Of a stretch of DNA of 64,000 nt, positions 10,049 to 26,899 are shown piece after piece (position 1 is the stretch's first letter; each line of letters opens with the position of its first letter). Made by a program: the position numbers and the translations under genes. The DNA is from Agreia sp. Leaf283 (lineage in GTDB: Bacteria > Actinomycetota > Actinomycetes > Actinomycetales > Microbacteriaceae). The DNA is taken from the NCBI RefSeq assembly GCF_001422485.1, contig NZ_LMNF01000001.1:751900-815899 (forward strand). The letters run 5' to 3'. Below the pieces are notes generated by a model. The model was given only the letters and a program-made list of their open reading frames with translations. It was not told the DNA's origin and ran no database searches.

Positions 10049-10798
10049 TCAGCGGCCGAGCCAGCCCCCGTCGACCGGCAGGAGGATGCCGTTCACGTAG
10101 TCCGACGCGGTCGACGCCAGGAAGACCGCGGCGCCCGCCAGGTCGCCCGGCTGACCGAGTCGCCCTGCCGGAATGCGCTCGAGGATCTGCTTCGAGCGCA
10201 CCGGGTCTGCCTTCAACCCCTCGGTCACACGAGTGTCGATGTAGCCGGGCGCGATGGCGTTCACATTCACGCCGCTGCCCGCCCACTCGTTCGACAACGC
10301 CCGCGTCAGCCCGGCCAGCCCCGACTTCGCGGCCGCGTAGCTCGCCACGTTCAGCCCGCCTTGGAAGCTCAGCATCGACGCCGTGAAGATGATCTTGCCC
10401 GAGCCGCGCTCGAGCATTCCGCGCCCCACCGCCTGTGCGAGCACGAACTGGCTCGACAGGTTGACCTCGAGAACGTGGTCCCAGTCCTCCTGCGAGTGAT
10501 CGGCGGCGGGCACCCGCCGGAACGTTCCGGCGTTTCCGACCAGGATGCCGACGGGCAGCTCGGCTAGCCGGCTCGCCAGGGCGCTGGTCGCGGTGCGGTC
10601 GGCGAGATCGCACCGGATGGCGGTGAACGCGCGCCCCCGCTTCTCGACGGCCGCTTGCAGCTCGCTTCCCGAGGCCTCCATGCCGAGGCTTACGCCGACG
10701 ATGTCGGCGCCGGCATCCGCGAGCGCGGTGGCTATGCCGAGTCCGATGCCCCGACGGGCGCCGGTGACGACGGCGAGCTTTCCGGTCAGATCGAACAT
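10049..10798 (-). CDS. SDR oxidoreductase, KduD/gluconate-dehydrogenase-like
   Basis: A 249-residue classical SDR: TGARRGIG cofactor loop near residues 13-20, GNAG motif (VGNAGTFRR), active-site Ser in FTASM, catalytic Tyr and Lys in SYAAAKSG, and the C-terminal PVDGGWLGR. Sequence flavour and length are those of 2-deoxy-D-gluconate 3-dehydrogenase / 5-keto-gluconate reductase type enzymes that act on sugar acids or polyols with NAD(P). It is the last gene of the liv-type transport operon, 16 bp after livF, so it most likely acts on the imported compound or its first product. That is the best hint that the importer is not for branched-chain amino acids. Confidence 0.88.
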   Translation of the reverse strand: MFDLTGKLAVVTGARRGIGLGIATALADAGADIVGVSLGMEASGSELQAAVEKRGRAFTAIRCDLADRTATSALASRLAELPVGILVGNAGTFRRVPAADHSQEDWDHVLEVNLSSQFVLAQAVGRGMLERGSGKIIFTASMLSFQGGLNVASYAAAKSGLAGLTRALSNEWAGSGVNVNAIAPGYIDTRVTEGLKADPVRSKQILERIPAGRLGQPGDLAGAAVFLASTASDYVNGILLPVDGGWLGR

Positions 10799-10814
10799 GG
10801 GGGGAGCCTATCTG

Positions 10815-11528
10815 TCACACCACTCCGAGGTAGCGGGACTGCACCTCGGGGTCGCCCGCGATCTCGGCCGCCGGCAGGTCGGCGGCGATGCGCCCGTTGA
10901 CCATTACGAGGATCCTGTCGCACAGCTCGGCGGCGAAACGCAGGTTCTGCTCGACGAGCAGCACCGCCTGCCCCTCGGAGACGACTCGGCGGAACACGTC
11001 GGCCAGGTGGTCGACGACCGCGGGCGCGAGGCCCTCGCTGGGCTCGTCCATCACGAGCAGACGCGGGTTCGTGAGCAACGCCCGACCGATCGCGAGCATC
11101 TGCTGCTCGCCGCCGGAGAGCGCGCCGCCGCCGTTCTTCTTGCGCTCGGCGAGCCGGGGAAAGAGCTCGTAGATCGCGTCCGGGTTCCACCTCGCCGACT
11201 TCTTGGCGCCGACCATCGTGAGGTGCTCGTGCACCGTCAGCGACGGAAAGATGCGGCGCCCCTGCGGCACGTAGCCGATGCCCGCCCGGGTGACCTGAAA
11301 AGGAGCCTTGTTCGCGACATCCCGCCCCTCGAACTCGATCGAGCCCGACTGGGCGGGCAGCATGCCGGCGATCGCATTGACCAGCGTGGTCTTGCCCATG
11401 CCGTTGCGGCCGACCATTCCGAGGGGCTCGACTCCCATCTCGAACGAGACGTCTTGCAGCACGTGCACCCGCCCGTACGAGACGTTCAGGTTCGAGACGC
11501 GGAAGAGGGGGTCAGGCGACGTCGTCAA
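10815..11528 (-). CDS. livF: HAAT-type ABC transporter ATP-binding protein (LivF-like)
   Basis: A 237-residue ABC ATPase, the same length as typical LivF. Walker A is GRNGMGKT, the signature LSGGEQQ, Walker B LLVMDEPSEGL, and a switch His-like LLVEQN, all in the LivF arrangement (EQN rather than EHD). It powers import through LivH/LivM with LivG. The start is taken as TTG 11528 because GGAGG lies 5 bases upstream inside the end of livG; a GTG at 11558 would give ten more residues and is less well placed. It overlaps livG by 17 bp and is followed by the SDR gene. Confidence 0.9.
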   Translation of the reverse strand: MTTSPDPLFRVSNLNVSYGRVHVLQDVSFEMGVEPLGMVGRNGMGKTTLVNAIAGMLPAQSGSIEFEGRDVANKAPFQVTRAGIGYVPQGRRIFPSLTVHEHLTMVGAKKSARWNPDAIYELFPRLAERKKNGGGALSGGEQQMLAIGRALLTNPRLLVMDEPSEGLAPAVVDHLADVFRRVVSEGQAVLLVEQNLRFAAELCDRILVMVNGRIAADLPAAEIAGDPEVQSRYLGVV

Positions 11529-12288
11529 GGGAGCCTCCGAGATAGATTTCGCGCACACGTTCGGACGCCCGGATGTCTGCGGGCGAGCCCTCGAGGATCT
11601 TCTCGCCGTCGTGCATCACCACGACACGGTTGGCCACGGCGAGCGCGATGTCCATGTCGTGCTCGATGAGCAGCAGGGTGATCTCCTCGGGCAGCTCACG
11701 CAGGAGTCGCACGAGATGGATGCGTTCGGCCGGCGAGAATCCCGCGGCCGGTTCGTCGAGCATCAGCAGCTTGGGCTGCAGCGCGAGCGCCATGGCCAGT
11801 TCGAGCTGGCGCTGCTCACCGTGCGAGAGGTCGGCGACGATCGCCGAACCCTTGTCGCCGAGCCCGACGCGGTCGAGCAGGCGTTCGACACGCGACCAGC
11901 GGTTGACCGTGTTCACGTGCTTCGAACTCGGCCACGCGACGCGCAGCGAGGCGCCCCTGAATTCCGAGCCGCCGAGCGCCACGAACACGTTCTCGGCCGC
12001 CGTCAGCTGCTCGAACAGCCGGGAGGTCTGAAATGTGCGGGCAAGCCCGCGTTTGGCCCTCTTCGCGGTGGAGAGCCCCGTCACATCGTGGCCGAACAGT
12101 TCGATGCGGCCCGAGGTGACGGGGAAGACCCCCGCGATGAGGTTGAAGAGCGTCGACTTGCCCGCACCGTTGGTGCCGATCACACTGATGCGCTCCCCGT
12201 CGGCGATCTCCAGGTCGACGTTGCGCATCGCCTTGAGCCCGCCGAAGTGCTTGGACACGTCGGCGACACGGAGAGCGACATCAGTCAT
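11512..12288 (-). CDS. livG: HAAT-type ABC transporter ATP-binding protein (LivG-like)
   Basis: A 258-residue ATPase of the branched-chain amino acid (HAAT) subfamily. Walker A is GTNGAGKST near residue 38, the signature LSHGEQRQLELAMAL, Walker B LLMLDEPAAGFSP, and the switch His in LLLIEHDMD, followed by the C-terminal EGSPADIRASERVREIYLGG typical of LivG. It pairs with LivF on the cytoplasmic face of the LivH/LivM channel. Between it and the upstream binding-protein gene lies a 112-bp gap filled with interspersed repeats, which may set a lower level for the ATPases than for the binding protein. Confidence 0.92.
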   Translation of the reverse strand: MTDVALRVADVSKHFGGLKAMRNVDLEIADGERISVIGTNGAGKSTLFNLIAGVFPVTSGRIELFGHDVTGLSTAKRAKRGLARTFQTSRLFEQLTAAENVFVALGGSEFRGASLRVAWPSSKHVNTVNRWSRVERLLDRVGLGDKGSAIVADLSHGEQRQLELAMALALQPKLLMLDEPAAGFSPAERIHLVRLLRELPEEITLLLIEHDMDIALAVANRVVVMHDGEKILEGSPADIRASERVREIYLGGSLDDVA

Positions 12289-12309
12289 GGTCTTTTCCTT
12301 TCAGCGGTT

Positions 12310-12400: not shown

Positions 12401-13681
12401 TTACGGGCAGCCGTCGAAGCGGTCGTAGACAGTGGTGCCCTGTTTCACACCGTTGGCCTCGCTCACATCGGTCAGGGTGAGCGCACCGCCGTCGCCCGCG
12501 GCGACCTCCACGAGGAAGTTGTCGACGACGGCCTGGCGGTTCTCATCCATCGAGATCGGTCCGGTGGGTGAGTCCCACGACGTGGCCTCGAGCGCGGAAC
12601 GCAGGTCGGCCTGTCCATCGCCGAGGTCGCCCTTGACGTCTTCGATGCCGAGCAGCAGCGACTCGAACGAGTTGTAGTACAGGATCGAGAAGATCGACGG
12701 GCTCGGGAACGCGTCCGGCTGAGTGGCATAGGCGTCGACGAACGTCTTCCAGTCGGGGTTGTCGTAGTCGGCACCGGGAACCGGGCCACCGGTGATCGTG
12801 CCGATCGCGGCCTGGCCGATGTTCGCATCCCCCGACAGGGCCGTCGTGTCGACGGCGATCGAACCGCCCACGAGCGGCTTGTTGACGCCGGCCGTCACGG
12901 CCTGCGAGAGGAAGCTGGCGGCATCCGCACCACCGAGACCGACGTACACCGCGTCGGTGTCCGCCGGAATCTGCGACAGGATCGTGGCGTAGTCGGTGGT
13001 GCCGACGGGAACCCACGAGTTGCCGTTCACCTCGCCGCCCGCCGCACAGAACTCGGAGAAGAATCCGCCCGCGTTGTCGTAGGGGAAGGAGTAATCCTCG
13101 GCGATCGAGTAGATCTTCTTGTAACCCTTGTCGTTGTAGGCGTAGTCGCCGAGGCCGCCCATCCACATGGCGGAGTCGCCGTGGAAGCGGAAGAAGTTCT
13201 CGGCGCCCTCGAGAGTCATGCTCACGGGACTCGCCGATCCGTTCACGAACGTGATGTCGGGTGTCGTGAGCGCGTACTGCACGACCGCCTCTCCCTCGTC
13301 ACCCGAGACCGGTCCGAACACGATGTCGACCCCGTCGTTCTCGACAAGCTTCTTCACTTTCGTCTGGGCGGAGCCCGAGGTTCCGTCGGTTCCCTCGTAG
13401 ACGAACTCGACCTTCTTGCCGCCGACTTCACCGCCGTCGACGGTGCCGCCGCGGGCCTCCATGGCCACGCCGATCGCGGCCTTGGCCTCGCCCATTCCGA
13501 AGGCGAGGTTGCCTTCCGACGTGGCGAGCACGCCGATCTTGATGGTGTCGGAGCCTCCGTCGCCGGAGTCGCCTCCCGAGTCGCCGCCCGTTCCGGCCGG
13601 TGCGCATCCTGCCAGGAGGAGCACGAGGCCCGCCCCGGCCGAGGCCGCGGCGAACGCGGTCCTCTTCGTATTCAGCGTCAT
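12401..13681 (-). CDS. HAAT-type ABC transporter substrate-binding lipoprotein
   Basis: A 426-residue secreted lipoprotein. A signal peptide ends in the lipobox LLLAGC (Cys about residue 26), followed by a Gly/Ser/Asp-rich linker. The mature part is a type I periplasmic-binding fold of the LivJ/AmiC family (Peripla_BP_6): IKIGVLATSEGNLAFGMGEAK, then GTSGSAQTKVKKLVENDGVD and IVFGPVSGDEGEAV. It captures the substrate for LivH/LivM. The genes around it (SDR, Gfo/Idh/MocA, isomerases) point to a polyol or sugar-acid-like ligand rather than leucine. Start ATG 13681 overlaps the end of livM. The family also contains binders of urea, amides and aromatic acids, so the substrate is open. Confidence 0.9.
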   Translation of the reverse strand: MTLNTKRTAFAAASAGAGLVLLLAGCAPAGTGGDSGGDSGDGGSDTIKIGVLATSEGNLAFGMGEAKAAIGVAMEARGGTVDGGEVGGKKVEFVYEGTDGTSGSAQTKVKKLVENDGVDIVFGPVSGDEGEAVVQYALTTPDITFVNGSASPVSMTLEGAENFFRFHGDSAMWMGGLGDYAYNDKGYKKIYSIAEDYSFPYDNAGGFFSEFCAAGGEVNGNSWVPVGTTDYATILSQIPADTDAVYVGLGGADAASFLSQAVTAGVNKPLVGGSIAVDTTALSGDANIGQAAIGTITGGPVPGADYDNPDWKTFVDAYATQPDAFPSPSIFSILYYNSFESLLLGIEDVKGDLGDGQADLRSALEATSWDSPTGPISMDENRQAVVDNFLVEVAAGDGGALTLTDVSEANGVKQGTTVYDRFDGCP

Positions 13682-14784
13682 TGCTGTTTCCTTTCATTGG
13701 ATGGATCTGTGATTCCAGGGGGTGTCGGCACGTCGGGAGCTGTCGGCGCCTGGGGTGCGCGCCGACGAGTCGAGAGTGCCCTGACGACCTGCTTGCCGAC
13801 GCCGGCCAGGCCGGTGGGGGCGAAGAGCAGGACGACGATGAAGACCAGTCCGGTGAGCGTCATGTAGCGCTCGGTCACGTTCTGGGCGAAGTTGTCGAGC
13901 AGGGTGAGCACGATGCCGCCGACGAAGACTCCGCCCAGCGACCCCACCCCTCCGATCACGGCGACGACGAGGATGTCGAGGGTCGACGAGAGGCTCACCA
14001 CATCGGGGTCGACCTGGGCCCTGTCGAAGACCATGATCACGCCCCCGATGGAGGCGATGAACGCGGTGAACGTCATCGCCGCGATGCGGTACCGGTTCAC
14101 GTTGTAGCCGAGCGCGCTCATGCGCTCCGGCGAATCGCGGATGCCCTGCAGCGCCAGGCCGAAGCTGGTCGCGGCCACGTAGCGGCAGAGCAGGTAGCAG
14201 AGCACCGCGGCGGCCAGCGCGCCGTAGTAGAAGATGTGCAGCTGGGCGAAATCGACGACTCCCAGGTCGGGGCGCGGGATCGGGGCGAGCCCCCGCCGCG
14301 CGTTGGTGACCTCGATCGACTGCGATGCGAACGAGTACACGACCTGGCCGATCGCGAGGGTGATCATCAGGAAGTAGATGGCCTTGGTGCGGGCCGCGAT
14401 CAGCGCGACGAGGAAGCCCGCGACGGTGCCGACGAGGATGCCCACCGGCACGGCGAGGAACACCGATTGGTCGAGGGTCACGACCATGTAGCCGACGCCG
14501 TAGGCGGCGATGCCGGCCAGCGTCATCTGCGCCAGCGACAGCAGCCCCACGTAGCGGTTCAGGAAGACGAGACTCATGGCGATCGTGCCGAGCCAGAGGG
14601 ACTTGATGCCGATATTCGGAATCCAGAAGCGCGGCCTGTCGACCACGTAGGGGAAGGCGAGAGCCGCGCCCAGCACGACGACCCACAGGATCCACCGGTA
14701 GCGCTGCCACGTCGACTTCTGCGGCGTGCCGACGGGCAGCGGCTCGACGAGTCCGCTGTCGGTGGGTTTGGTCAGGATGCTCAT
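13678..14784 (-). CDS. livM: HAAT-type ABC transporter permease (LivM-like)
   Basis: A 368-residue inner-membrane protein with about nine or ten helices and the LivM signature region: GLLSLAQMTLAGIAAYGVGYM, AARTKAIYFLMITLAIGQVVY, ALQGIRDSPERMSALGYNV and GGVGSLGGVFVGG. The N-terminal 45 residues are cytoplasmic and basic. With LivH it forms the heterodimeric channel. It overlaps livH upstream and the binding-protein gene downstream by 4 bp each, so the three are translated as a unit. Confidence 0.92.
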   Translation of the reverse strand: MSILTKPTDSGLVEPLPVGTPQKSTWQRYRWILWVVVLGAALAFPYVVDRPRFWIPNIGIKSLWLGTIAMSLVFLNRYVGLLSLAQMTLAGIAAYGVGYMVVTLDQSVFLAVPVGILVGTVAGFLVALIAARTKAIYFLMITLAIGQVVYSFASQSIEVTNARRGLAPIPRPDLGVVDFAQLHIFYYGALAAAVLCYLLCRYVAATSFGLALQGIRDSPERMSALGYNVNRYRIAAMTFTAFIASIGGVIMVFDRAQVDPDVVSLSSTLDILVVAVIGGVGSLGGVFVGGIVLTLLDNFAQNVTERYMTLTGLVFIVVLLFAPTGLAGVGKQVVRALSTRRRAPQAPTAPDVPTPPGITDPSNERKQQ

Positions 14785-15650
14785 GCCGTGGCCGTCCGTC
14801 GTCCGAGGATTCCCTGGGGCCGGAACGCGAGCACGACGACCATCAGGGCGAAGGTGAGAACCAGCGAGTACGTCGGGGCGAAGACCAGCGAGAACTGCGA
14901 GATCAGGCCCACCAAGGCAGCCCCGATCGCCGCCCCCGGGATGCTCCCCATGCCTCCCACGATCACGACCACGAGGGAGAAGAGCAGGTAGGTGCCGTCC
15001 TGCCCCGGCAGCAGCGGGAAGAGGGTGCCGCCGACCACACCGGCGAATCCCGCGAGCGCCGAGCCCAGCACGAAGATGAGGGCGAACACGACTCGCACGT
15101 TGATTCCTGTGGCGCTGGTCATCTGGCTGTCGTCGACGCCGGCCCGCACGATCGAGCCGAAGCGGGTGCGATTGACGAACAGCCAGAGTCCGACTCCTAC
15201 GGCGATCGACACCGCGAGAATGAGCAGCCTGATGAGCGGGTACTGCCCGATGCCCGGCAGCTCGAGCCCGATCTGCAGCTCCGGCGGCAGGGGAACCTGC
15301 GTCGCCGTTCCGCCGAAGGTGGCGAGCATCAGGTCGGTGCCGATGAGGCTCACACCGAGGGTGATGAGCGCCACGCGCATGTCGTCGTCTTGAAAACGAC
15401 GGATCAGCAGCTGGTGGATGAGGAGTCCCAGGATTCCCACGGCGACCGCGCCCCCGAGAGCGCCCAGGAACCAGTTGCCGGTCTCGCGGGCCACGACGTA
15501 GCCGAGGTATCCGCCCAGGAGATAGCTGGTTCCGTGGGCCATCGTGATGACGCGCATGAGCCCGAAGATCAGGGTGAGCCCTGATGCCACGAGGAAATAG
15601 ACGGCCCCGAGCGTGAGCCCGTTGAGCGCGATCAGCAGGAACTGATCCAT
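14781..15650 (-). CDS. livH: HAAT-type ABC transporter permease (LivH-like)
   Basis: A 289-residue permease, the first gene of the transport operon. Recognisable LivH segments are NGLTLGAVYFLVASGLTLIF at the N-terminus, MRVITMAHGTSYLLGGYLGY, and GGMGSIPGAAIGAALVG near the C-terminus. It spans the membrane about eight times. ATG 15650 lies downstream of a control region that carries palindromic sites shared with the gntR gene and the flavin oxidase gene, so transcription of the whole liv-SDR operon is probably controlled by that GntR regulator. Confidence 0.92.
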   Translation of the reverse strand: MDQFLLIALNGLTLGAVYFLVASGLTLIFGLMRVITMAHGTSYLLGGYLGYVVARETGNWFLGALGGAVAVGILGLLIHQLLIRRFQDDDMRVALITLGVSLIGTDLMLATFGGTATQVPLPPELQIGLELPGIGQYPLIRLLILAVSIAVGVGLWLFVNRTRFGSIVRAGVDDSQMTSATGINVRVVFALIFVLGSALAGFAGVVGGTLFPLLPGQDGTYLLFSLVVVIVGGMGSIPGAAIGAALVGLISQFSLVFAPTYSLVLTFALMVVVLAFRPQGILGRRTATA

Positions 15651-15707: not shown

Positions 15708-15743
15708 TGTATCCACACCTGTATACAACTTCTTGTACACTAA
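15708..15743. promoter_or_regulatory. Candidate GntR operator pair in the liv/Gfo intergenic region
   Basis: Two adjacent palindromic cores: TGTATACA at 15720-15727 and TGTACA at 15734-15739, centres 13 bp apart. The left site (TGTATCC, two bases, ACCTGTATACAA, 15708-15728) matches 19 of 21 positions at 25736-25756 in front of the flavin oxidase gene. The right site CTTCTTGTACACTAA (15729-15743) matches 14 of 15 positions at 20957-20971, just upstream of the gntR start. It lies between the divergent livH and Gfo/Idh/MocA genes. Confidence 0.75.
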
Positions 15744-15820
15744 TTGCACGGCTCTCCGCTGTCAACGGAGCAGAATAGATGCACACCACAACAAATCGCG
15801 ACGAAGCGAATGGAGACCAA

Positions 15821-17029
15821 GTGAGCCAAGACCCCGTGACTCCCCGGGCAGCCGCACCGCTCGGCGTAGCCGTCATCGGATACGCCTTCATGGGCAAGGC
15901 CCACTCGGGAGCCTGGCGCAACGTGGCCGCCTACTTCGACGTTCCCGCCGTCGAGCAGACCGTGCTCGTCGGTCGTGATGCGGCGAAGGTCGCCGCCGCC
16001 GCCGAGAGGTTCGGCTGGAAGGAGAGCGCCACCGACTGGCGTGCGGTGCTGGAGCGCGACGACGTGCACATCGTCGACGTCTGCACCCCGGGCATCCTGC
16101 ACCACGAGATCGTGCTCGCGGCGCTCGCGGCAGGCAAGCACGTGATCGTCGAGAAGCCGCTGGCCAACACCGTCGCCGAGGCCGAGGAGATGGCCGAGGC
16201 CTTCGAGAAGGCCAGGGCCAACGGGCAGCACGCGATCGTCAACTTCAACTACCGCCGGGTGCCCGCCATCGCGCTCGCGAAGAAGTTCATCGACGACGGC
16301 CGCATCGGCCCCATCCGGCACGTGCGCATCAGCTACCTGCAGGACTGGCTCAGCGACCCCTCCTCCCCCATGAGCTGGCGGCTTCGCCGCGAGGAGGCCG
16401 GATCGGGCGCGCTCGGCGACCTCGGCTCGCACGCCACCGACCTCGTGCTGCACCTCACGGGCGAGAGCATCGACAGCCTCACCGGTGGCGTGCACACCTT
16501 CGTGACGCAGCGGCCGTCGGGCGACAGCGGTGACGGGGCGATCGGCGGCTCGGCTTCCGACTCGGGGTCGGCTGACGTCGCGCTCGAAGACGTGACAGTG
16601 GATGACGCCGCGTGGGCGACGGGTCGGCTCTCAGGGGGCGGCATCGTGCAGCTCGAGGTCTCGCGCTTCGCGCTCGGCGCCAAGAACGGCCTCGCGCTCG
16701 AGATCTATGGCGAGAAGGGCAGCCTGACGTTCGACCTCGAGAACCTCAACGAGCTGATGTTCTTCGACTCCGGCGATGCGGCCGGGGAACAGGGGTTCCG
16801 ACGCATCCTGGTGACCGAGGCCGGGCATCCGTATGTCGGCCACTGGTGGCCCGACGGCCACATCATCGGTTGGGAGCACACGTTCGTGCACCAGTTCGCC
16901 GACTTCCTCAACTCCATCCGCGACGACACCGAGTCGCAGCCGTCGTTCGCCGACGGACTGCGGGTTCAGAAGGTGCTCGCCGCCGTGGAGAGTTCTGCCG
17001 CCGCAGGCGGCGCATCCGTCACCCCGTAA
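15821..17029 (+). CDS. Gfo/Idh/MocA-family oxidoreductase
   Basis: A 402-residue NAD(P)-dependent dehydrogenase. The Rossmann part begins with GVAVIGYAFMGKAHSGAW, has the family EKPLANT motif near residue 120, and the C-terminal alpha/beta domain carries GDLGSHATDLVLHLTG with the catalytic-type His. A Ser/Gly/Asp-rich loop at about residues 230-260 looks like an insertion. Family members oxidise inositols, sugars or aldose derivatives. GTG 15821 with GGAG 5 bases upstream is chosen; ATG 15779 (GGAG at 8 bases) would add 14 residues and is a real alternative. It is divergent from livH across the shared operator, so it is expected to be induced with the importer. Confidence 0.9.
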   Translation: MSQDPVTPRAAAPLGVAVIGYAFMGKAHSGAWRNVAAYFDVPAVEQTVLVGRDAAKVAAAAERFGWKESATDWRAVLERDDVHIVDVCTPGILHHEIVLAALAAGKHVIVEKPLANTVAEAEEMAEAFEKARANGQHAIVNFNYRRVPAIALAKKFIDDGRIGPIRHVRISYLQDWLSDPSSPMSWRLRREEAGSGALGDLGSHATDLVLHLTGESIDSLTGGVHTFVTQRPSGDSGDGAIGGSASDSGSADVALEDVTVDDAAWATGRLSGGGIVQLEVSRFALGAKNGLALEIYGEKGSLTFDLENLNELMFFDSGDAAGEQGFRRILVTEAGHPYVGHWWPDGHIIGWEHTFVHQFADFLNSIRDDTESQPSFADGLRVQKVLAAVESSAAAGGASVTP

Positions 17030-17119: not shown

Positions 17120-18133
17120 ATGACACGCCCCGTCACCCTGTTCACCGGCCAGTGGGCCGACCTGCCGTTCGAGGAGGTGGCCAGGCTCGCCGGAGAGTGG
17201 GGCTACGACGGCCTCGAGATCGCCTGCTGGGGCGATCATCTCGACCCGTGGCGCGCAGCCGAAGACGACGCCTACGTGCAGTCGCGCCTCGACATCCTCG
17301 AGAAGAACAACCTCAAGGTCTTCGCGATCTCGAACCACCTCAAGGGTCAGGCGGTCTGCGACAACCCCATCGACTTCCGCCACAAGGACATGGTCTCGGC
17401 GAAGGTCTGGGGCGACGGCGACGGTGAGGGCGTTCGCCAGCGCGCTGCCGAGGAGATGAAGAAGACCGCGATCTCGGCGCGCAAGCTCGGCGTCGACACC
17501 GTCGTGGGCTTCACCGGCTCGAGCATCTGGCAGTACGTGGCCATGTTCCCGCCCGTGGGTCAAGACGTGATCGATGCCGGCTACCAGGACTTCGCCGACC
17601 GCTGGAACCCGATCCTCGACGTGTTCGAGGGCGAGGGCGTGCGCTTCGCCCACGAGGTGCACCCGTCGGAGATCGCCTACGACTACTGGTCGACCGTTCG
17701 CACCCTCGAAGCCATCGACCACAGAAAGTCGTTCGGGCTGAACTGGGACCCGAGCCACATGGTCTGGCAGGGCATCAACCCGGTCGAGTTCATCACCGAG
17801 TTCGCCGAGCTGATCTACCACGTCGACTGCAAGGACACCCGCATGCGCAACGGCAACTCGGGGCGCGCAGGCATCCTCGGCTCGCACCTGCCATGGGCCG
17901 ACCCGCGCCGCGGCTGGGACTTCGTGTCGACGGGGCACGGCGACGTTCCGTGGGAGGACGCGTTCCGCGCGCTCAACCACATCGGCTACACCGGCCCCAT
18001 CTCGGTGGAGTGGGAGGACGCCGGCATGGACCGCCTGCGCGGCGCGCCCGAGGCCCTCGCCTTCGTGCGCTCGCTGCTCTGGGAGGCGCCCACGGCATCC
18101 TTCGACGCCGCCTTCTCGACGAAGGTCGACTAG
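17120..18133 (+). CDS. Sugar phosphate isomerase/epimerase family TIM barrel
   Basis: A 337-residue xylose-isomerase-like TIM barrel (AP_endonuc_2 fold). Metal-ligand residues of the fold are seen as the Glu of [13 protein letters not shown], the Asp/His of [19 protein letters not shown], and the late [11 protein letters not shown]. The substrate is not readable; relatives epimerise or isomerise keto-sugars or act as inosose dehydratases. A ribosome-binding AAGGAGAA precedes ATG 17120. It follows the Gfo/Idh/MocA gene on the same strand with only the repeat hairpin between them, a pairing common in polyol and inositol catabolism. Confidence 0.88.
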
Positions 18134-20012: not shown

Positions 20013-20084
20013 GCGCCCATGATGGGGCAGCAGCCCGACTGGATGGATGCCTCTCCACAGGGTCGTCTTCGGCTGGGCGGCGAT

Positions 20085-20185
20085 GCGAACCGACGCAAAT
20101 TGCTGCCTTTTGACGTCAGGAGAGCAGATTGCGTCGGTTCGCGTCGTCACCGAGAACGCGAACCGACGCTAACTGCTCTCCTTTC
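20085..20185. repeat. Inverted repeats built on CGAACCGACGC
   Basis: GCGAACCGACGCAA (20085-20098) pairs perfectly with TTGCGTCGGTTCGC (20129-20142). A third arm GCGAACCGACGC starts at 20158 and is followed by TAACTGCTCTCC. A related element with CGAACTGACGC arms lies at 30164-30254. The gap 20013-20264 holds only this and no gene. Confidence 0.8.
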
Positions 20186-20264: not shown

Positions 20265-20945
20265 CTACGCATCGCCCAGCAGCATCGCGGCAGCGTCGAG
20301 CATGTCGAGCATGCGACGGCGCATGTGGCCGATGTGCTCTTTCACGGCGGGCTCGATGGCCGCGTAGTCCTTGGCGATCATGGCGTCGGCCAGCACCTGG
20401 TGCTCGGTCGAGCACGCCTCGAGGCGGTGCTGCAGCGTGGCCGCGCGCAGCCAGAAGCGCTGGATGCGACGTCGCGTCTCCTTGACCGTGTCGGCCACCA
20501 GCTGGTTGCCCGCGATTCCGTTGACCAGTCGGTGGAACGCGAGGTCCGCCTCCGACCAGGAGTCGCGATCGTCGCCGTGCGCCGCCCGCGTCATCTCCTC
20601 GACCGACGAACGCAGGCGTTGGATGTCGTCTTCCGTCAGCTTCTCGGCCGCCTTGCGGCAGATGTAGGTGTCGAGAACCTCGAGCAGGTCGCAGGCGTCG
20701 TTGACCTCGGTGCGCGTGAGCTGCGACACGGTGAAGCGCGCATTGTCGGTGCGCTTGACGAGCCCCTCCTTCTCAAGGCGCTGCAGGGCCTCGCGCACCG
20801 GAGTGCGCGAGATTCCGAGCTGGTTGGCGATGCGGTTCTCCGAGAGCGGCGCTCCGGAGCGCAGGCGGAAACCCGTTATCTCCGAGAGCAGGAACTCGTA
20901 GGCGTCGTTGACCCGTGAGCTCGCCTCGGTCGTTGTGATCACCAT
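20265..20945 (-). CDS. GntR-family (FadR/FCD subfamily) transcriptional regulator
   Basis: A 226-residue regulator. The winged helix is at about residues 10-75 (GAPLSENRIANQLGISRTPV, then REALQRLEKEGLVKR, the GntR signature). The C-terminal FCD helical domain (residues 85-215) has the metal/ligand residues Asp and His in SEADLAFHRLVNGIAGN and His in CSTEHQVLADAM and VKEHIGHMRR. FCD regulators respond to sugar acids and other carboxylates. An operator-like word just upstream (20957-20971) matches one in the liv/Gfo control region, and a second shared word lies upstream of the flavin oxidase. It is therefore the probable master regulator of catabolic island A. Confidence 0.92.
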   Translation of the reverse strand: MVITTTEASSRVNDAYEFLLSEITGFRLRSGAPLSENRIANQLGISRTPVREALQRLEKEGLVKRTDNARFTVSQLTRTEVNDACDLLEVLDTYICRKAAEKLTEDDIQRLRSSVEEMTRAAHGDDRDSWSEADLAFHRLVNGIAGNQLVADTVKETRRRIQRFWLRAATLQHRLEACSTEHQVLADAMIAKDYAAIEPAVKEHIGHMRRRMLDMLDAAAMLLGDA

Positions 20946-21030: not shown

Positions 21031-21939
21031 TCACAGCACGCGGTCGACGAACTCGCGGTTGTGCACCGTCACCGGAACCTTCTGCAGCTCGAGGATGCCC
21101 CGGGCGACGTGCTCCGACAGCCGGCGGAAGGCCTCGTGCCCCTTCTCAGCGGTGGCGCGCATCGGGTTGCCGATGATCCCGTTCTCGACGAACTCGTGGT
21201 GGTCCATGGGGAAGCTGAAGTACTGGTACCCCTCGAACTCGGCGTCGGGCATCCCGTCGTCTTTCGAGAACGCCTTCGGCAGGAAGGCAGGGATGTGCGC
21301 GCGGGTGTCGACGGCGCGCTCCATGCGCACGAGGTTCTCGTTCCAGGCCAGGTCCTGCGACGTCTCGAGCTCGGAGGAGTGCCAGCCGGGAGTCTCCTCG
21401 GGCGGGTTCTCCATGAGTCCCTTCAGGATGCCCTCGTAGCGCTCCATGTAGGGCTTCACGAAGGAGATCAGCGCGCCCGTCTCGTAGCGGAGCTTGCGCA
21501 GCACCGGGTCGACGACCTTGATGTTCGAGCCGTGGCCGTTGATGAAGATGATGCGGTTGAATCCGTGATGGATGAGGCTGCGCGCGATGTCGTTCATCAG
21601 CGCGAGCAGCGTCGACGAGCGCACCGTGATCGTGCCGCGCCCCTCGCCCACGCCGTACATGTGCTGCGGCGAGTAGCCCGTCCAGATGGGAGGGGTGTGC
21701 AGCACGCCGATCTCCTCGGAGATGCGCTCCGAGATCTCGACCGCCGTGATCGTGTCGGTGAACAGCGGCAGGTGCGGCCCGTGCTGCTCGGTCGACGCGA
21801 TGGGAACGAGCACCGTGTCCTTCGTCTTGAGGTACTCGCCGATGTCGACGTACGAGAGGTGCGCCAGGTTCCACGAGCGGAACTTCTCGCGGAACTCCTC
21901 GTCCCCCTCGGTCAGTCTGTTCACAATGCGTTCGCTCAT
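21031..21939 (-). CDS. Creatininase-family metal-dependent hydrolase
   Basis: A 302-residue cytosolic protein with the three metal motifs of the creatininase fold: Glu/His/Asp in STEQHGPHLPLFTD (about residues 50-62), INGHGSN (about 130), and the His-Glu block in WHSSELETS (about 190). The family includes creatinine amidohydrolase, MftE and, to my recollection, a ring-opening hydrolase (IolN) for 3-dehydro-scyllo-inosose in the Thermotoga inositol pathway. The neighbours here are a Tm-1-like protein (4-bp overlap), an epimerase-like barrel and a flavin oxidase, so a carbohydrate-ring or C-C/C-N hydrolysis step fits better than creatinine. The exact reaction is unproven. Confidence 0.85.
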   Translation of the reverse strand: MSERIVNRLTEGDEEFREKFRSWNLAHLSYVDIGEYLKTKDTVLVPIASTEQHGPHLPLFTDTITAVEISERISEEIGVLHTPPIWTGYSPQHMYGVGEGRGTITVRSSTLLALMNDIARSLIHHGFNRIIFINGHGSNIKVVDPVLRKLRYETGALISFVKPYMERYEGILKGLMENPPEETPGWHSSELETSQDLAWNENLVRMERAVDTRAHIPAFLPKAFSKDDGMPDAEFEGYQYFSFPMDHHEFVENGIIGNPMRATAEKGHEAFRRLSEHVARGILELQKVPVTVHNREFVDRVL

Positions 21940-23177
21940 GCGAGTGCCTCCTTGGGGCGGGTCGAGTCGAGGATGGTACTGAACAGCTCGGCGACATGGC
22001 GCCCGAGCTCGGGGTCGTTGATGTGCAGGTCGATGGTCTCGACGGGTATGTCGGGCCGGATGTTCGCCCGCACCTCCTCGAGGAACGCGGCGTCGGCCGC
22101 GGGGTTCCAGAACGGACCGTCGGGCGTCGACGGGATCGACAGCCCGCGGGTCGGAACGACGACGCGCACCGGCCCGGTGGCCGAGTTCAGCCGATCCGCG
22201 AAGATGCGCCCGATCTGTCGCATCTCGTCTTCGGGAGTGCGCACGAGCGTGTACTCGGGATTGTGGTCGTAGACGGGTCGGCCCGCGAGCGCCGAGGGGA
22301 TCTGCCCCGCCGCGAAGACAGAGAAGTCGATGCAGCCGGGCACGATGACCTGCGGCAAGCCGAGTTCGCCCACGACCCGCAGACGGTTCGGCCCGCCGTT
22401 GTGGATGCCTCCGGTCAGCGGATCCGTGATCTCGTTCGTCGTGTAGTCGATGACCCCCACGAACTGGCCGGCCGCCGCGAGCTCCTCCATGGCGGGCCCG
22501 CCGACGCCGTTCGAGTGGAACACCACCGTCTCGTAGCCGAGCTCCGCGAGGCGCGCCTTCATCGCCTCCACGGCGTGGGTGGTGTTGCCCAGCATGGTGG
22601 TGGCCACATAGCGGGTGTCTGCCGACGGCGGGCCGAGCGGATGACCCGCCCGCAGCATCCCGAGCATCGCCGCGGCCACGTTGTCGAAGACCGTGGTCGA
22701 GATGGGGTTGAGGCCCAGGATGTCGACGATCGAGTGCACGACCATCACGTCTTTCGTGCCCACGTAGGGCGCGAATTCGTGGTGACCGGATGCCGTCGGC
22801 GCGACGACGATCTTCGGCACGCCGACGGGCAGGACCTGGATGGCGGCGGCGCCCATGACCGAGCCCACTCCCCCGACGCTGATGCCGCCGACCACCTCTC
22901 CGAGGGCGAACTTCTCGCGCACCAGGTCGGTGACGAGGGTGCGCATGATCTCGACGGCGCGTCCGCGGGTTCCGGCGTGCTGCAGCTCGTCGAGGGTCAT
23001 GCCCCCTCGACGAGCCAGCTCGCCGTGCGAGATGTCTGGCGTGATGCCCACCGGCTCGCCCAGGATGCCGGAGTCGATCACGAAGGTGTCGACGCCAAGG
23101 GAGGCGAGGCGGTCGCGCAGATACGCGACCTCCGGCCCCTTGGTGTCGAGCGTCGCTATGAGAACGACAGCACCCAT
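21936..23177 (-). CDS. Tm-1-like ATP-binding domain protein (UPF0261)
   Basis: A 413-residue UPF0261 protein: N-terminal VVLIATLDTKGPEVAYLRDRL, the conserved ILGEPVGITPDISHGELA, GGISVGGVGSVMGAAAIQVL, VAPTASGHHEFAPYVGT, and a second half with VFHSNGVGGPAMEELAAAGQF and GCIDFSVFAAGQIPSA. The plant homologue Tm-1 binds ATP and inhibits tobamovirus replication; bacterial members sit in catabolic clusters with no assigned reaction. ATG 23177 has GGGAG 7 bases upstream; the extension to 23204 is unsupported. Its end overlaps the creatininase start (ATGA), so the two are coupled and probably act on consecutive intermediates or as a complex. Confidence 0.88.
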   Translation of the reverse strand: MGAVVLIATLDTKGPEVAYLRDRLASLGVDTFVIDSGILGEPVGITPDISHGELARRGGMTLDELQHAGTRGRAVEIMRTLVTDLVREKFALGEVVGGISVGGVGSVMGAAAIQVLPVGVPKIVVAPTASGHHEFAPYVGTKDVMVVHSIVDILGLNPISTTVFDNVAAAMLGMLRAGHPLGPPSADTRYVATTMLGNTTHAVEAMKARLAELGYETVVFHSNGVGGPAMEELAAAGQFVGVIDYTTNEITDPLTGGIHNGGPNRLRVVGELGLPQVIVPGCIDFSVFAAGQIPSALAGRPVYDHNPEYTLVRTPEDEMRQIGRIFADRLNSATGPVRVVVPTRGLSIPSTPDGPFWNPAADAAFLEEVRANIRPDIPVETIDLHINDPELGRHVAELFSTILDSTRPKEALA

Positions 23178-23207: not shown

Positions 23208-24104
23208 CTACTTCGTGATCAGCGGCAGCAGCGTTTCGGCGTTCACCTTGACCAGCCAGTCGTAGTACTCCTCGGTGAGGATCGACGAGCCGTGGTCGAT
23301 GATGAACTTCAGCTGGTCGGGGTCGATGTCGAGCCCGTCGAAGTTCGTCTCGAGCGCGTTCGGGTACTTGTTCGCCGGCGTGCGGTCGACGGGGGCCACG
23401 AACTCCGCCGTGAGGGCGCCGTCGTAGCCGATCTCCTCGAGCGTCGAGACGACCCTCTGCCAGTCGTAGTCCCCGTAGCCGGCGGGCATCCGGTTGTTCT
23501 CGGCGACGTGGAAGTCGACGAGCTTCGGGCCGACAAGCCGGATGGCGTCCCAGAGGTTCGCCTCCTCGATGTTGATGTGGAACGCATCCAGCACCACTCC
23601 GAGGTTCGGGCCCACGGCGTCGCAGAGCGCCAGCGCCTGCTCGGCGCGGGTGATGAGATACGACTCGAAGCGGTTGAGCGGTTCGATGCCGACGCGCACG
23701 CCTTTGGCCTCGGCGACCTCGTAGATCTCCTTGACGCCGTCGACGAGCCAGCCCCACTCGTTCTCGGGAGTCGAGTCGGGCGTGATCTTGCCCACCTCGC
23801 CCGGAACGAGCGTGAGGATCTGGCCGTCGAGGTCGGAGACGAGCTGGATGCAGTCCTTCACGTACTGCACGCTCGACGCGCGCACGCCTTCGTCGCCGGA
23901 CTGCATGTTGCGGCCGCCGACCATGAGCGTCACGGATCCCCAGCAGTCGAGGCCGTAGTGGTCGAGCAGCCCGCGCACATGCTTGGGGTCGTACTTCTCG
24001 GGCTCTCCCGAGATCTCGATGCTCTTGTAGCCGTATTTCGCGAGACGGGCGATCGTGGTCTCGATCGGTTCCGATCGCATCCAGTTGTGCATGGACAGAT
24101 GCAT
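23208..24104 (-). CDS. Sugar phosphate isomerase/epimerase TIM barrel (tagatose-3-epimerase-like)
   Basis: A 298-residue barrel of the xylose-isomerase-like superfamily. Metal-site residues follow the D-tagatose/psicose 3-epimerase order: Glu in VGIEPLNRFESYLIT (about 150), Asp and His in VVLDAFHINIEE (about 182), His in LVDFHVAENNR (about 208), and Glu in GALTAEFVAP (about 245). It should epimerise or isomerise a keto-sugar or keto-acid. It begins with AAAGGAG ahead of ATG 24104 and is 30 bp upstream of the Tm-1-like gene in a four-gene operon. It is a different subfamily from the barrel at 17120. Confidence 0.88.
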   Translation of the reverse strand: MHLSMHNWMRSEPIETTIARLAKYGYKSIEISGEPEKYDPKHVRGLLDHYGLDCWGSVTLMVGGRNMQSGDEGVRASSVQYVKDCIQLVSDLDGQILTLVPGEVGKITPDSTPENEWGWLVDGVKEIYEVAEAKGVRVGIEPLNRFESYLITRAEQALALCDAVGPNLGVVLDAFHINIEEANLWDAIRLVGPKLVDFHVAENNRMPAGYGDYDWQRVVSTLEEIGYDGALTAEFVAPVDRTPANKYPNALETNFDGLDIDPDQLKFIIDHGSSILTEEYYDWLVKVNAETLLPLITK

Positions 24105-24176: not shown

Positions 24177-25676
24177 CTACCAGCGGGAGTTGCGGGGCGG
24201 CCCGAAGCCGAGTTTGCCGGGGTTCATGATTCCGTCGGGATCCCACGCGTCTTTGAGTGCACGCATGAGCTCGAAGCCGGTGCCGTGCTGGAGGCGCATG
24301 AATCGACCGAGCTTCATTCCCACGCCGTGGTGATCATTGAGCACGCCCCCCGCTGAGATTCCCTCACGGATTCCAACATCCCACAGCCTGTCGTGCAGCG
24401 CCATGGCCTCGGCCGGGTCGGTGGGCGGCTCGTCGACATAGAACCGGTCGTAGATCATGGCGCCCCAGTCGTACCAGTGCGAGAGGTGGGCCGTGTAGCG
24501 GGCGCCGTAGTCGGCGAACTGCGCTTCGATCGCCGACTTCTTGGCCCGGTAGATCGCGGGCAGGTCGCTGAAGCGGGCGACGGTGTCGAAGGTTCCGTAG
24601 AGCAGAGGCGGCTGGGGCAGCTTGCCCTTCGCGTAGGGCTCGTACTTCCCGTCCCACCAGATGCGCCCCACATCGGGGCCGAGCGAGGTGCCGCCGGCCT
24701 TCTCCGCCTGCGCGGTGATGGCGCGCAGCTCGTAGTCGACGAGCTCCTGATCGCCGTCGCACATGATCACCATGAGGGTGCCGGTGAACGGGGTGCCGAC
24801 CCAGTCCTTGAGCTTCTTCGAGTCTGCCTCGTCGTAGAGCCGGATGACCGCGGGACGCAACCTGGCGGTCATGATGCGGCGACCCGCATCCATGCCCGCG
24901 AAGATGTCGGGGAAGCTGAAAGAGAGGAACCCACGGGCCTCGGGCAGGGGGTCGATGCGGAGGCTGGCCTCGGTGATCACGCCGAGGGTGCCCTCGCTGC
25001 CGACGAAGGTCTGCAGCAGGTCGGAGCCCGCGGCGTGGCTCGGAACGTTCAGCGTCTTGACGACCGTGCCGGGCGCGACGACGGCCTCGACCTGCAGCAC
25101 CTGGTCTTCGGCCTTGCCGTACTTGGTGCTCACGACTCCCGAGCCTCGGGCGGCGATGAAGCCGCCGATCGTGGCGCCGAGGTGGTAGCTGCCGGGGTAG
25201 TGCGCGAGCGTGAGGCCCTTCTCGTTGAGGGCCGCCTCGAGCGTCGGGCCGTCGATTCCCGCACCCGTCGTCACGACCAGGCTCTCCTCGTCGATCTCGA
25301 CGATCGTGTTCAGGCGGGTGAGGTCGACGGCTATTCCGCCGTAGGGCGCGAAGGTGCCGCCCTGGGTGCCGGAGCCTCCGCCGCGCGGGACCACGGGGAT
25401 GCGGTAGTCGGATGCGAGTCGCACGACGGCCTGCACGTCGGCGGTCGTTCCCGGGCGCACTACGAAGTCGGCGGCGGGCACCGCGAGATCGCGATACTGC
25501 AGGTACTTGCTCATCCACGACCAGTCGGCGGCCTGCTCCTGCGTCTCGGCCTGATCGATCGACACGTGCTCGGCGCCGATGGCCATCTGGAGTTCGCGCA
25601 GCACGTGGCCCCGCAGGAACGAGGAGCCGCTGACGAGTGTGGTGTCGACGCTGCTGCCCAGATCATGGTTCCCCAC
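24177..25676 (-). CDS. FAD-linked oxidase, alkyl-DHAP synthase/glycolate oxidase-like
   Basis: A 499-residue flavoprotein of the VAO/PCMH family. The FAD domain shows VVPRGGGSGTQGG (about 95-107), VTTGAGIDGPTLEAAL, HYPGSYHLGATIGGFIAARG and VGSEGTLGVITEA; the cap domain follows. The C-terminus GGVLNDHHGVGMKLGRF then DAWDPDGIMNPGKLGFG is the form seen in alkyl-dihydroxyacetone-phosphate synthase and in GlcD-type hydroxy-acid oxidases. It probably oxidises a hydroxy acid or polyol-derived alcohol. The start is GTG 25676 with AAAGGAG 5 bases upstream. It is the first gene of the operon reading toward gntR, under the shared operator at 25734. Confidence 0.9.
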   Translation of the reverse strand: MGNHDLGSSVDTTLVSGSSFLRGHVLRELQMAIGAEHVSIDQAETQEQAADWSWMSKYLQYRDLAVPAADFVVRPGTTADVQAVVRLASDYRIPVVPRGGGSGTQGGTFAPYGGIAVDLTRLNTIVEIDEESLVVTTGAGIDGPTLEAALNEKGLTLAHYPGSYHLGATIGGFIAARGSGVVSTKYGKAEDQVLQVEAVVAPGTVVKTLNVPSHAAGSDLLQTFVGSEGTLGVITEASLRIDPLPEARGFLSFSFPDIFAGMDAGRRIMTARLRPAVIRLYDEADSKKLKDWVGTPFTGTLMVIMCDGDQELVDYELRAITAQAEKAGGTSLGPDVGRIWWDGKYEPYAKGKLPQPPLLYGTFDTVARFSDLPAIYRAKKSAIEAQFADYGARYTAHLSHWYDWGAMIYDRFYVDEPPTDPAEAMALHDRLWDVGIREGISAGGVLNDHHGVGMKLGRFMRLQHGTGFELMRALKDAWDPDGIMNPGKLGFGPPRNSRW

Positions 25677-25733
25677 GGAGACTCCTTTGTGTCGTGTGGA
25701 CGGTTCGTGTCACGGTCCGCGGTCTGCATCGAC

Positions 25734-25757
25734 CTTGTATCCGAACCTGTATACAAG
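25734..25757. promoter_or_regulatory. Candidate GntR operator upstream of the flavin oxidase and AKR genes
   Basis: CTTGTAT (25734-25740) and ATACAAG (25751-25757) form a 7-bp inverted repeat, and the right half contains the perfect palindrome TGTATACA (25748-25755). The stretch 25736-25756 agrees with 15708-15728 at 19 of 21 positions. It sits in the 137-bp gap between the divergent flavin oxidase and aldo/keto reductase genes. Confidence 0.75.
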
Positions 25758-25813
25758 CAAGAACACTATGTGGTGTTTGGGTGCGTGTCAACTGACCCGC
25801 GTACGCTCGAACG

Positions 25814-26899
25814 GTGGAAGACATCGAGATCGAAGACAGCATCGCGTCGCGCCTGGGGCTGGGACTCGCCGCTATCGGCCGCCCCGCGTACATCACCGCC
25901 GGGCGCACGAAGGACCTGGGCGAGGGCGCCGATCGCAGCGTGGATGCGATGCGCGAGCGGGCGCACAAGCTTCTGGATGCCGCGTGGTGGCTGGGCATCC
26001 GCTACGTCGACGCGGCGCGCTCGTACGGACGCGCCGAGGAGTTCCTCGGATCGTGGCTCGCCGCGCATCCGGGGTATCGCGACGAGCTGACCATCGGATC
26101 GAAGTGGGGCTACGAGTACACCGGCGACTGGCGGCTCGACGCGCCGCAGCAGGAGCGCAAGGAGCACTCCCTCGCGATGTTCGAGCGGCAGTGGGCGCAG
26201 ACGCTCGAGACGCTCGGCACCGAACCCGACGTGTACCTCGTGCACTCCCTGACCTCCGACAGCACGGCCCTCGACGACGGCGCGCTGCTCGACCGGCTGC
26301 GCGCGCTGCGCGAGAGCGGGGTGCGCGTGGGCTTCTCGACGAGCGGGCCGGCGCAGGCCGCCGTGATCGAGCGCGCGCTCGGCCTGGCCGACTCCCCGTT
26401 CTCTGCCGTGCAGTCCACCTGGAACCTTCTCGAGCCCTCGGTGGGCGAGGCGCTCGCCGCGGCGAACGACGCCAAGTGGCTCGTCGTGGTGAAGGAGGTG
26501 CTGGCCAATGGGCGGCTGACGTCGCGGGCTGCAAGCGCAGGTGCTGCCGGGTCTGACGGGTCTGTTCCGGGCGCTGCCGGCGGGGCGGTTCCGGATGCCG
26601 CGGTCGCGGCCGCCGCTGCCCTCGCCGCCGAAGACGGCCAGCGCCTCGACGGGCTGGCCATCGGTGCGGCCGCCGCTGCCCTCGCCGCCGAAGACGGCCA
26701 GCGCCTCGACGGGCTGGCCATCGGTGCGGCCGTCGCGCATCCGTGGGCCGACATCGTGTTGACCGGAGCGGTGACCCGCAAGCAGCTCAAGCAGAACCTC
26801 GAGGCGCGCGCGCCCTCTCTCGACGAGGAGCGCCTCGCGGCACTGGCCGAGCCGGCCGAACAGTACTGGGAGGCGCGCGCCGCCCGCCCCTGGAGCTGA
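25814..26899 (+). CDS. Aldo/keto reductase with a recent in-frame 20-residue tandem duplication
   Basis: A 361-residue AKR. Active-site residues follow the family order: Asp and Tyr in YVDAARSYGRAEEF (about 60-73), Lys in IGSKWGY (about 96), and His in VYLVHSL (about 139). NADPH is the usual cofactor. The GTG start has no ribosome-binding site, but TACGCT ends 6 bp upstream, so the message may be leaderless. The region from about residue 235 to 305, before VLTGAVTRKQLKQNL, is swollen: a low-complexity Gly/Ala/Ser stretch, then a block of 20 residues (AAEDGQRLDGLAIG and flanking Ala) repeated exactly. This lies near the cofactor-binding C-terminal loops and could affect activity. Divergent from the flavin oxidase, sharing its operator. 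Confidence 0.85.
   Translation: MEDIEIEDSIASRLGLGLAAIGRPAYITAGRTKDLGEGADRSVDAMRERAHKLLDAAWWLGIRYVDAARSYGRAEEFLGSWLAAHPGYRDELTIGSKWGYEYTGDWRLDAPQQERKEHSLAMFERQWAQTLETLGTEPDVYLVHSLTSDSTALDDGALLDRLRALRESGVRVGFSTSGPAQAAVIERALGLADSPFSAVQSTWNLLEPSVGEALAAANDAKWLVVVKEVLANGRLTSRAASAGAAGSDGSVPGAAGGAVPDAAVAAAAALAAEDGQRLDGLAIGAAAAALAAEDGQRLDGLAIGAAVAHPWADIVLTGAVTRKQLKQNLEARAPSLDEERLAALAEPAEQYWEARAARPWS
26606..26732 (+). repeat. Perfect 60-bp tandem duplication inside the AKR gene
   Basis: Positions 26606-26665 and 26666-26725 are identical, and identity continues for 7 further bases. The unit length is a multiple of three, so the frame is kept. No mismatches means a very recent event, a strain-variable repeat, or an assembly artefact. 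Confidence 0.95.

Follow-up and report, generated by a model that had tools for sequence, protein, structure and literature searches.

In the pathways for four-carbon acid sugars, the characteristic enzymes are an OtnI isomerase, a DUF1537 kinase and a class II aldolase. Hardly any chemistry has been assigned to the UPF0261 family, which takes in the N-terminal part of the plant resistance protein Tm-1. In Novosphingobium aromaticivorans, the kinase MarK is reported to initiate acetovanillone catabolism (PMC13101465). Here we describe a gene cluster of Agreia sp. Leaf283 in which a UPF0261 gene adjoins a gene for a creatininase-fold hydrolase (Crt), together with genes for a ketose-3-epimerase-type TIM barrel (TIM2) and a VAO-type FAD enzyme (VAO). 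The analyzed window, that is, the whole stretch of DNA, is 64 kb long, and the surrounding genome measures 3.98 Mb. The genes form a genuine unit that would import and break down a small molecule, probably related to a sugar, and that fits no pathway we know. Within the open-access literature searched it is uncharacterized: among the matches listed, no title or abstract opening describes this gene set. The reading that we tentatively prefer, with a somewhat less than even chance of being right, is that of a local, GntR/FCD-controlled two-operon unit that may oxidize, isomerize and phosphorylate a polyhydroxy acid or ketose and cleave it by hydrolysis. The recurrence of its core enzymes in distantly related bacteria offers a test of the function of the UPF0261 (Tm-1-like) family, and a compact regulon with a fixed enzyme neighbor, an importer and a predicted operator provides a route to the UPF0261 substrate.

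Conservation and predicted control of the cluster

With the UPF0261 protein as query, 31 related loci (61-75% identity) were obtained, in all of which UPF0261 is present by construction. They represent about eight phyla (Actinomycetota, Chloroflexota, Deinococcota, Rhodothermota, Balneolota, Bacteroidota, Poribacteria and Gemmatimonadota), many as metagenome bins, and split into 11 actinobacterial and 20 other loci; L and G numbers below are our handles for loci and genomes. Crt lies on the same strand as UPF0261 in all 31 and is unusually conserved, with 73-93% identity across these phyla; over 32 sequences, identity reaches 96% or more at 153 of its 302 positions. The gap between the aligned stretches of the two genes measures 14-176 bp in 28 loci and 339-1263 bp in 3; in L075 the order is reversed, with Crt before UPF0261. 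In the window, the end of UPF0261 and the start of Crt overlap by four bases (ATGA), and longest-open-reading-frame coordinates give the same overlap in six of the 20 mapped loci (L071, L076, L078, L079, L086 and L091). The initial annotation had tied UPF0261 to the creatininase-fold gene and called for a conserved-neighborhood analysis of the pair; the overlap and the unbroken pairing bear out this link.

VAO is present in 25 of the 31 loci, which are all those with enough upstream sequence, the contigs of the remaining six (L070, L073, L080, L084, L086 and L091) ending short upstream. TIM2 (at least 45% identity) occurs in 26 loci; the contigs of L080 and L091 are cut short, and TIM2 was not found at the L075, L083 and L085 loci, with copies elsewhere in the genome for L075 (54%) and L083 (48%). 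The TIM2 match of L153 (G891) contains one internal TAA. Actinobacterial loci add gntR and a Liv-type importer, GntR, LivH, LivM, LivG and the binding protein being present in all 11, and they optionally hold a Gfo/Idh/MocA dehydrogenase (Gfo/Idh, 8/11), a further TIM barrel (TIM1, 8/11) and a short-chain dehydrogenase/reductase (SDR, 4/11). This grouping of genes is far beyond chance. A variant locus, L098, combines VAO (79%), Crt (92%), a different UPF0261 (45%), SDR (68%) and an old yellow enzyme (OYE)-type gene, without TIM2.

Of 396 genomes sampled from the phylum, 32 have a UPF0261 gene. The cluster itself is sporadically distributed: among 299 genomes of the family, 8 have a close UPF0261 (62% identity or higher), none of five same-genus genomes sampled has one, and among 394 sampled genomes of the class only 3, the window's own included, have a Crt match at 1e-50. 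Yet some assemblies as small as 1.3-1.7 Mb, of which two are 99% complete, retain the cluster, so that it is probably useful where present.

The pattern TTGTATACAA, picked by eye from the VAO upstream region, occurs with at most one mismatch at exactly two sites in the 64 kb, 15719 and 25747, upstream of both operons. The expected number is 0.03, and two sites were reached in 1 of 100 shuffles. The site is found in 24 of 32 VAO or LivH upstream regions (17 loci, window included), where 0.14 would be expected, and in 22 of 30 regions of relatives once the window, from which the pattern was taken, is excluded. The VAO upstream region of L087 was too short and was dropped from this count. Five regions miss the pattern by having two mismatches (L077 VAO, L087 LivH, both regions of L088 and L092 LivH) and three diverge further (both regions of L105, with 3 and 4, and L098 VAO, with 5). 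Across the 4-Mb genome, an 11-base pattern with at most one mismatch gave 15 matches versus 22 for a reversed control, thus no enrichment; its sole exact match lies upstream of VAO. Joint control of both operons is a well-supported prediction because the shared site is found upstream of both and in relatives, and the position and conservation of gntR suggest that GntR is the protein that would bind it. The initial annotation of an unassigned, jointly regulated catabolic unit is thus supported in its main point.

Pfam and NCBIfam confirm the annotated genes, the aldo-keto reductase (AKR) included, at or very near the positions first given and in the families first named (Table 1). Most of the set once placed under one regulator does belong together, but AKR drops out, and Gfo/Idh and TIM1 form only an accessory pair. 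AKR (at least 40% identity), the AIM24-family gene and gene 19071-20150 (at least 35%) and the GH78 gene (at least 45%) were not found in any of the 31 fetched stretches. AKR and the two genes at 18249-20150 are probably bystanders for this reason, and the latter two seem to have been inserted between TIM1 and gntR. Gene 19071-20150 has no Pfam match at 1e-6. The AKR gene contains a 60-bp tandem repeat (26601-26736, 2.2 copies, 97%) that duplicates about 20 residues. At the start of the window (37-705) stands the end of an FMN-dependent dehydrogenase gene, and FMN_dh genes also occur near the cluster in L064 and L066.

Table 1 Features of the cluster, with positions in the 64-kb window
Feature	Position	Strand	Basis and occurrence
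SDR, KduD-like, optional member	10049..10798	-	kduD profile; 4/11 actinobacterial loci, 55-61% identity
LivF, Liv-type ATPase	10815..11558	-	Pfam; 10/11 actinobacterial loci, L087 cut off
LivG, Liv-type ATPase	11512..12288	-	Pfam; 11/11 actinobacterial loci
Solute-binding protein, Peripla_BP_6	12401..13681	-	11/11 actinobacterial loci, 59-84% identity
LivM, Liv-type permease	13678..14784	-	11/11 actinobacterial loci
LivH, Liv-type permease	14781..15650	-	11/11 actinobacterial loci
Predicted operator, divergent gap between importer and Gfo/Idh	15719..15728		TTGTATACAA with at most one mismatch; recurs in relatives
Gfo/Idh/MocA dehydrogenase, levoglucosan-dehydrogenase-like, accessory	15779..17029	+	NF052479; 8/11 actinobacterial loci
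TIM1, TIM barrel, 2-hydroxy-3-keto-glucal hydratase relative, accessory	17120..18133	+	2ZDS, 8RO4; 8/11 actinobacterial loci
AIM24-family gene and gene 19071-20150	18249-20150		between TIM1 and gntR
GntR/FCD regulator	20265..20945	-	11/11 actinobacterial loci, 55-79% identity
Crt, creatininase-fold hydrolase	21031..21939	-	PF02633, 198.9 bits; 31/31 loci, 73-93% identity
UPF0261 (Tm-1-like), probable kinase by homology	21936..23177	-	PF06792, PF23189; structure matches 9MPY, Tm-1
TIM2, ketose-3-epimerase-type TIM barrel	23208..24104	-	11/11 actinobacterial, 15/20 other loci
VAO-type FAD enzyme, AGPS/GlcD-like	24177..25676	-	25/31 loci; other six cut short upstream
Predicted operator upstream of VAO operon	25747..25756		TTGTATACAA match
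AKR, probable bystander	25814-26899		0/31 orthologous stretches

Predicted reactions of the enzymes

The UPF0261 protein matches its domain models over the full length (PF06792, 150.8 bits; PF23189, 233.7 bits; cut-offs 27). Its AlphaFold model (pLDDT 90) is superimposable on Tm-1 and 9MPY chains near full length, with TM-scores by query of 0.64-0.82; among the 50 of 1332 matches listed, the other rows reach at most 0.35 by query (a Tm-1 fragment), and matches outside Tm-1 reach up to 0.46 by target. The 9MPY deposit is Saro_1862, a UPF0261 domain protein of N. aromaticivorans, with acetovanillone bound. The motifs YxGxxD and FHxxGxGG are common to the window protein, 9MPY and Tm-1, and DTK to the window protein and 9MPY, the Tm-1 alignment not covering that stretch. 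The window protein is probably a kinase, as judged from its kinship to acetovanillone-bound 9MPY and from the kinase, presumably the 9MPY protein itself, that initiates acetovanillone catabolism in that species. On the same grounds, UPF0261 no longer seems to be a family without an assigned reaction, as the initial annotation had it. The two-component dikinase HpeHI, considered as a possible relative, was ruled out by its described domain make-up, in which an ATP-grasp domain is combined with swivel and substrate domains as in rifampin phosphotransferase (PMC12167813).

The structural and sequence relatives of TIM2 are D-psicose/D-tagatose 3-epimerases. Seven residues (E141, E147, D173, H176, H199, R205 and E234) align with the ketose 3-epimerase site, which we take to be the catalytic and metal residues of those enzymes, and across 27 TIM2 sequences none of the seven falls below 96% identity. 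TIM2 scores 128.7 bits with the D-psicose 3-epimerase equivalog NF051856, under the cut-off of 300. The VAO-type enzyme reaches 177.7 bits with GlcD (TIGR00387; cut-off 567.9). A match to a gene for an Fe-S-type protein is found in 17 of the 20 non-actinobacterial loci, just after VAO where VAO is present, and in L068 and L074 the protein has cysteines in two clusters that resemble those in the Fe-S subunits of glycolate oxidase. Such a gene beside a flavoenzyme is an arrangement known for 2-hydroxyacid dehydrogenases. Its position after VAO suggests that VAO is a dehydrogenase rather than an oxidase. Crt belongs to the PF02633 superfamily (198.9 bits; cut-off 31.3), and its E51, H53, D62 and H136, presumably metal-binding, align with the creatininase structure; GHGSN replaces the GHYEN of that structure. 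Crt scores 125.1 bits with the creatininase equivalog TIGR04448 (cut-off 235) and 104.9 bits with IolN (NF041098; cut-off 245). A LarA-type nickel racemase gene lies downstream of Crt in 8 of the 20 non-actinobacterial loci (L070, L071, L072, L080, L081, L086, L089 and L091), and the L071 protein exceeds the lactate-racemase cut-off.

From the computed gene set, its conservation, the operator-like site and the family assignments, we infer the reactions, their order and the substrate class as follows. GntR/FCD would control two operons, the Liv importer with its optional SDR and VAO-TIM2-UPF0261-Crt-gntR, the divergent Gfo/Idh-TIM1 pair being grouped with the importer operon. VAO would oxidize one hydroxyl group of the substrate, a polyhydroxy acid or a ketose-like compound. 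TIM2 would epimerize the product or shift its keto group between C2 and C3, and UPF0261 would then phosphorylate it with ATP. Lastly, Crt, a putative metal hydrolase, may use water to cleave a C-C bond flanked by a keto group, the reaction for which IolN is named, or else a lactone or amide. This scheme is suggested by the conservation of the core across phyla, the shared operator-like site, the TIM2 residue set, the Fe-S neighbor, LarA and the kinship of UPF0261 to acetovanillone-bound 9MPY, together with the kinase of acetovanillone catabolism in that species.

Several observations weigh against the scheme. The window cluster has no aldolase, and Liv-type importers often carry amino acids, amides or aromatics. 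The best-scoring solved structure for VAO is alkyl-DHAP synthase (169 bits), followed by D-lactate dehydrogenase (145 bits), and the Crt AlphaFold model is poor (pLDDT 67). The Fe-S-type protein lacks several cysteines in two of the four sequences compared (L071 and L090); for that of L071, Pfam gives nothing at 1e-5 and NCBIfam a single weak match (37.6 bits), and the label "GlcF-like" was assigned by eye. TIM2 lies outside the cluster in two other genomes, and G487, whose cluster keeps VAO and Crt, has no TIM2 match in its genome. The substrates named for MarK are phenolic ketones, not sugars (PMC13101465), and the identity of Saro_1862 with MarK is itself deduced.

The accessory Gfo/Idh and TIM1 look like a portable glycoside 3-oxidation module that would widen the intake of the unit. 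Gfo/Idh scores 339.4 bits with levoglucosan dehydrogenase (NF052479; cut-off 650). TIM1 matches 2ZDS, deposited as a putative DNA-binding protein, with 524.5 bits, and 8RO4, a 2-hydroxy-3-keto-glucal hydratase, with 117.3 bits. Thus, of the two TIM barrels initially annotated as epimerases, TIM2 is of the ketose-3-epimerase type, but for TIM1 the term is unsupported. L133 and L135 carry the pair at a site apart from the cluster, and in L136 TIM1 has a 33% identical Gfo relative about 6 kb away; sugar importer genes, recognized by eye, lie near in all three, and L134 holds TIM1 without Gfo. We call the pair accessory because not all of the 11 cluster-bearing genomes tested have it: TIM1 has a match at 1e-30 in 7 of them, and Gfo/Idh has one at 1e-50 in 9. 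The SDR is KduD-like, as annotated, but its score of 314.3 bits with TIGR01832 is below the KduD cut-off of 338.85.

Alternative readings and UPF0261 partners

The first guess for the substrate had been a cyclitol, inosose or related sugar acid, by analogy with the Thermotoga inositol route (IolG/IolM/IolN/IolO). VAO and Gfo/Idh would then make a diketo-inositol, Crt would open the ring as IolN, TIM2 would epimerize the keto-hexonate as IolO, and UPF0261 would phosphorylate the product. A cyclitol stays a rival because IolO is the best NCBIfam match of TIM2 (NF041099; 131.9 bits), and Gfo/Idh matches a scyllo-inositol dehydrogenase structure with 206 bits. However, the IolO score and that of Gfo/Idh with IolG (96.1 bits) are, like the IolN score that the initial annotation had asked for, far below their cut-offs (300 for IolO, 355 for IolG), and Crt scores higher with creatininase than with IolN. 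No match to IolM was listed among the ten window proteins scanned. Moreover, Gfo/Idh is missing from 3 of the 11 actinobacterial loci, and two such genomes (G422 and G1048) have no match at 1e-50. The analogy is therefore weak and the cyclitol route unlikely. A phenolic compound or glycoside is a still less probable substrate: Gfo/Idh-TIM1 would free the phenol, UPF0261 would phosphorylate it as MarK does, VAO would oxidize the side chain and Crt would cleave the beta-keto product. Acetovanillone bound in 9MPY is consistent with this, as are the OYE-type gene of the variant L098 and a gene of the FAA-hydrolase family in L104. Aromatic acids are, moreover, frequent cargo of Liv-type importers, and phenols are common substrates of VAO enzymes. 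Against such a substrate stand the ketose epimerase residue set of TIM2 and the FGGY and PfkB sugar kinases and LarA that adjoin the cluster in some Chloroflexota loci, and ring-cleavage, CoA ligase and biotin carboxylase families were not seen among the selected neighbor proteins scanned, a set that was not searched systematically.

Slightly less probable again is amidohydrolysis, in which the Liv-type system would take up a nitrogen compound, as it would an amino acid or amide, and Crt would act on it as an ordinary, creatininase-like C-N hydrolase. Creatininase is indeed the top NCBIfam match of Crt, and the four aligned residues fit, but the score is under the cut-off and GHGSN stands in place of GHYEN; the sole amine-related domain among the neighbor proteins scanned, again not a systematic search, is an L068 aminotransferase fused to a GntR domain. 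A sulfonate substrate was also considered, from a TauE-family gene near the cluster in five Chloroflexota loci and L104, and was set aside, the L104 protein being unmatched to the others at 1e-10.

Returning to a polyhydroxy acid or ketose as substrate, the partners of UPF0261 suggest a more specific version. In a UPF0261 tree of 97 rows, 89 of them different, the neighbor within 1.3 kb is creatininase for 42, a PEP_hydrolase-like barrel for 50 and neither for 4; 9MPY makes up the remaining row. The partner sorts mostly by lineage: the labels need 5 changes on the tree versus 35.6 in shuffles, and the creatininase label alone needs 2, in a sample biased by the 31 loci, which were chosen for their similarity to the window protein, and with the long branches 9MPY, L103 and L024 placed unsurely. 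In two remoter loci, L103 (a Thermus plasmid) and L155 (G026), the creatininase and UPF0261 genes are joined by genes for a class II aldolase, a zinc dehydrogenase and a tripartite tricarboxylate transporter, sets that agree with the preferred scheme because they are expected for the breakdown of a phosphorylated acid sugar. Speculatively, UPF0261 proteins would be ATP-dependent kinases for enolizable ketones and keto acids, with a cleavage partner (PEP_hydrolase-like barrel, creatininase or class II aldolase) swapped by lineage. The window would hold the creatininase version: oxidation of an aldonate at C2 by VAO, movement of the keto group to C3 by TIM2, phosphorylation at the far end by UPF0261 and hydrolysis between C2 and C3 by Crt. 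If this is true, a pentonate would yield 3-phosphoglycerate and glycolate in four steps; as a whole, the proposal is improbable, more so than the cyclitol, phenolic or amidohydrolysis readings.

Glycolate as a product was retained for this speculative cleavage only, which is chemically neat but finds no support in the distribution of glyoxylate enzymes, as cluster-bearing genomes show no clear association with them. Malate synthase occurs in 4 of 9 of them (a count that includes the G487 variant, two of the five misses being only 82% complete) versus 150 of the 299 genomes of the family sample, to which they also belong, and glyoxylate carboligase over cut-off in 3 of 12 versus 0 of 12 other genomes. 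The genome of the window itself yields neither a malate synthase match nor a glyoxylate carboligase that exceeds the cut-off. In L105 (123-6079), malate synthase A and GlcD/E/F-like genes lie beside the cluster, GlcD and GlcE scoring below cut-off; these genes and the FMN_dh genes of L064 and L066 had pointed to glycolate.

Some UPF0261 loci show further arrangements. A second UPF0261 and PEP_hydrolase-like pair lies in the neighborhood of the UPF0261-creatininase pair in L078, L081 and L089, and a second creatininase-fold gene (L155, 16292-17086) lies about 5 kb from such a pair. In L099 (8582-10729; G000:C1), the second UPF0261 of the genome stands beside a PEP_hydrolase-like gene and near GH78-like genes; a GH78-like gene adjoins UPF0261 in 10 of 61 short loci.

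Relation to described systems

Both the window and the levoglucosan/glucoside 3-oxidation system (LgdA, LgdB and LgdC) combine a Gfo/Idh protein of the levoglucosan dehydrogenase type with a PF01261 barrel. In the window, however, Gfo/Idh reaches little more than half the cut-off and the pair is only accessory. The importers also differ, being of the Liv type here, whereas the levoglucosan clusters described carry sugar ABC importers (PMC7676230, PMC10066097). The Thermotoga inositol route likewise joins a dehydrogenase, a creatininase-fold hydrolase and a keto-sugar-acid epimerase in one cluster, but the matches to its IolG, IolN and IolO are distant and none to IolM was listed for the ten proteins. 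We know of no counterpart of VAO or UPF0261 in that route.

The four-carbon acid sugar pathways share the logic of oxidation, isomerization by an AP_endonuc_2 barrel, phosphorylation and cleavage. In contrast to these, the window has UPF0261 rather than a DUF1537 kinase and a creatininase instead of, or beside, an aldolase, and TIM2 scores 46.6 of the 325 bits set for 2-oxo-tetronate isomerase. The window UPF0261 has in common with Saro_1862 (9MPY) and plant Tm-1 a two-domain fold over nearly the whole length, at 32-33% and 28-30% identity, respectively, in structural alignment. It adjoins a creatininase, whereas in most other UPF0261 loci examined the neighbor is a PEP_hydrolase-like barrel.

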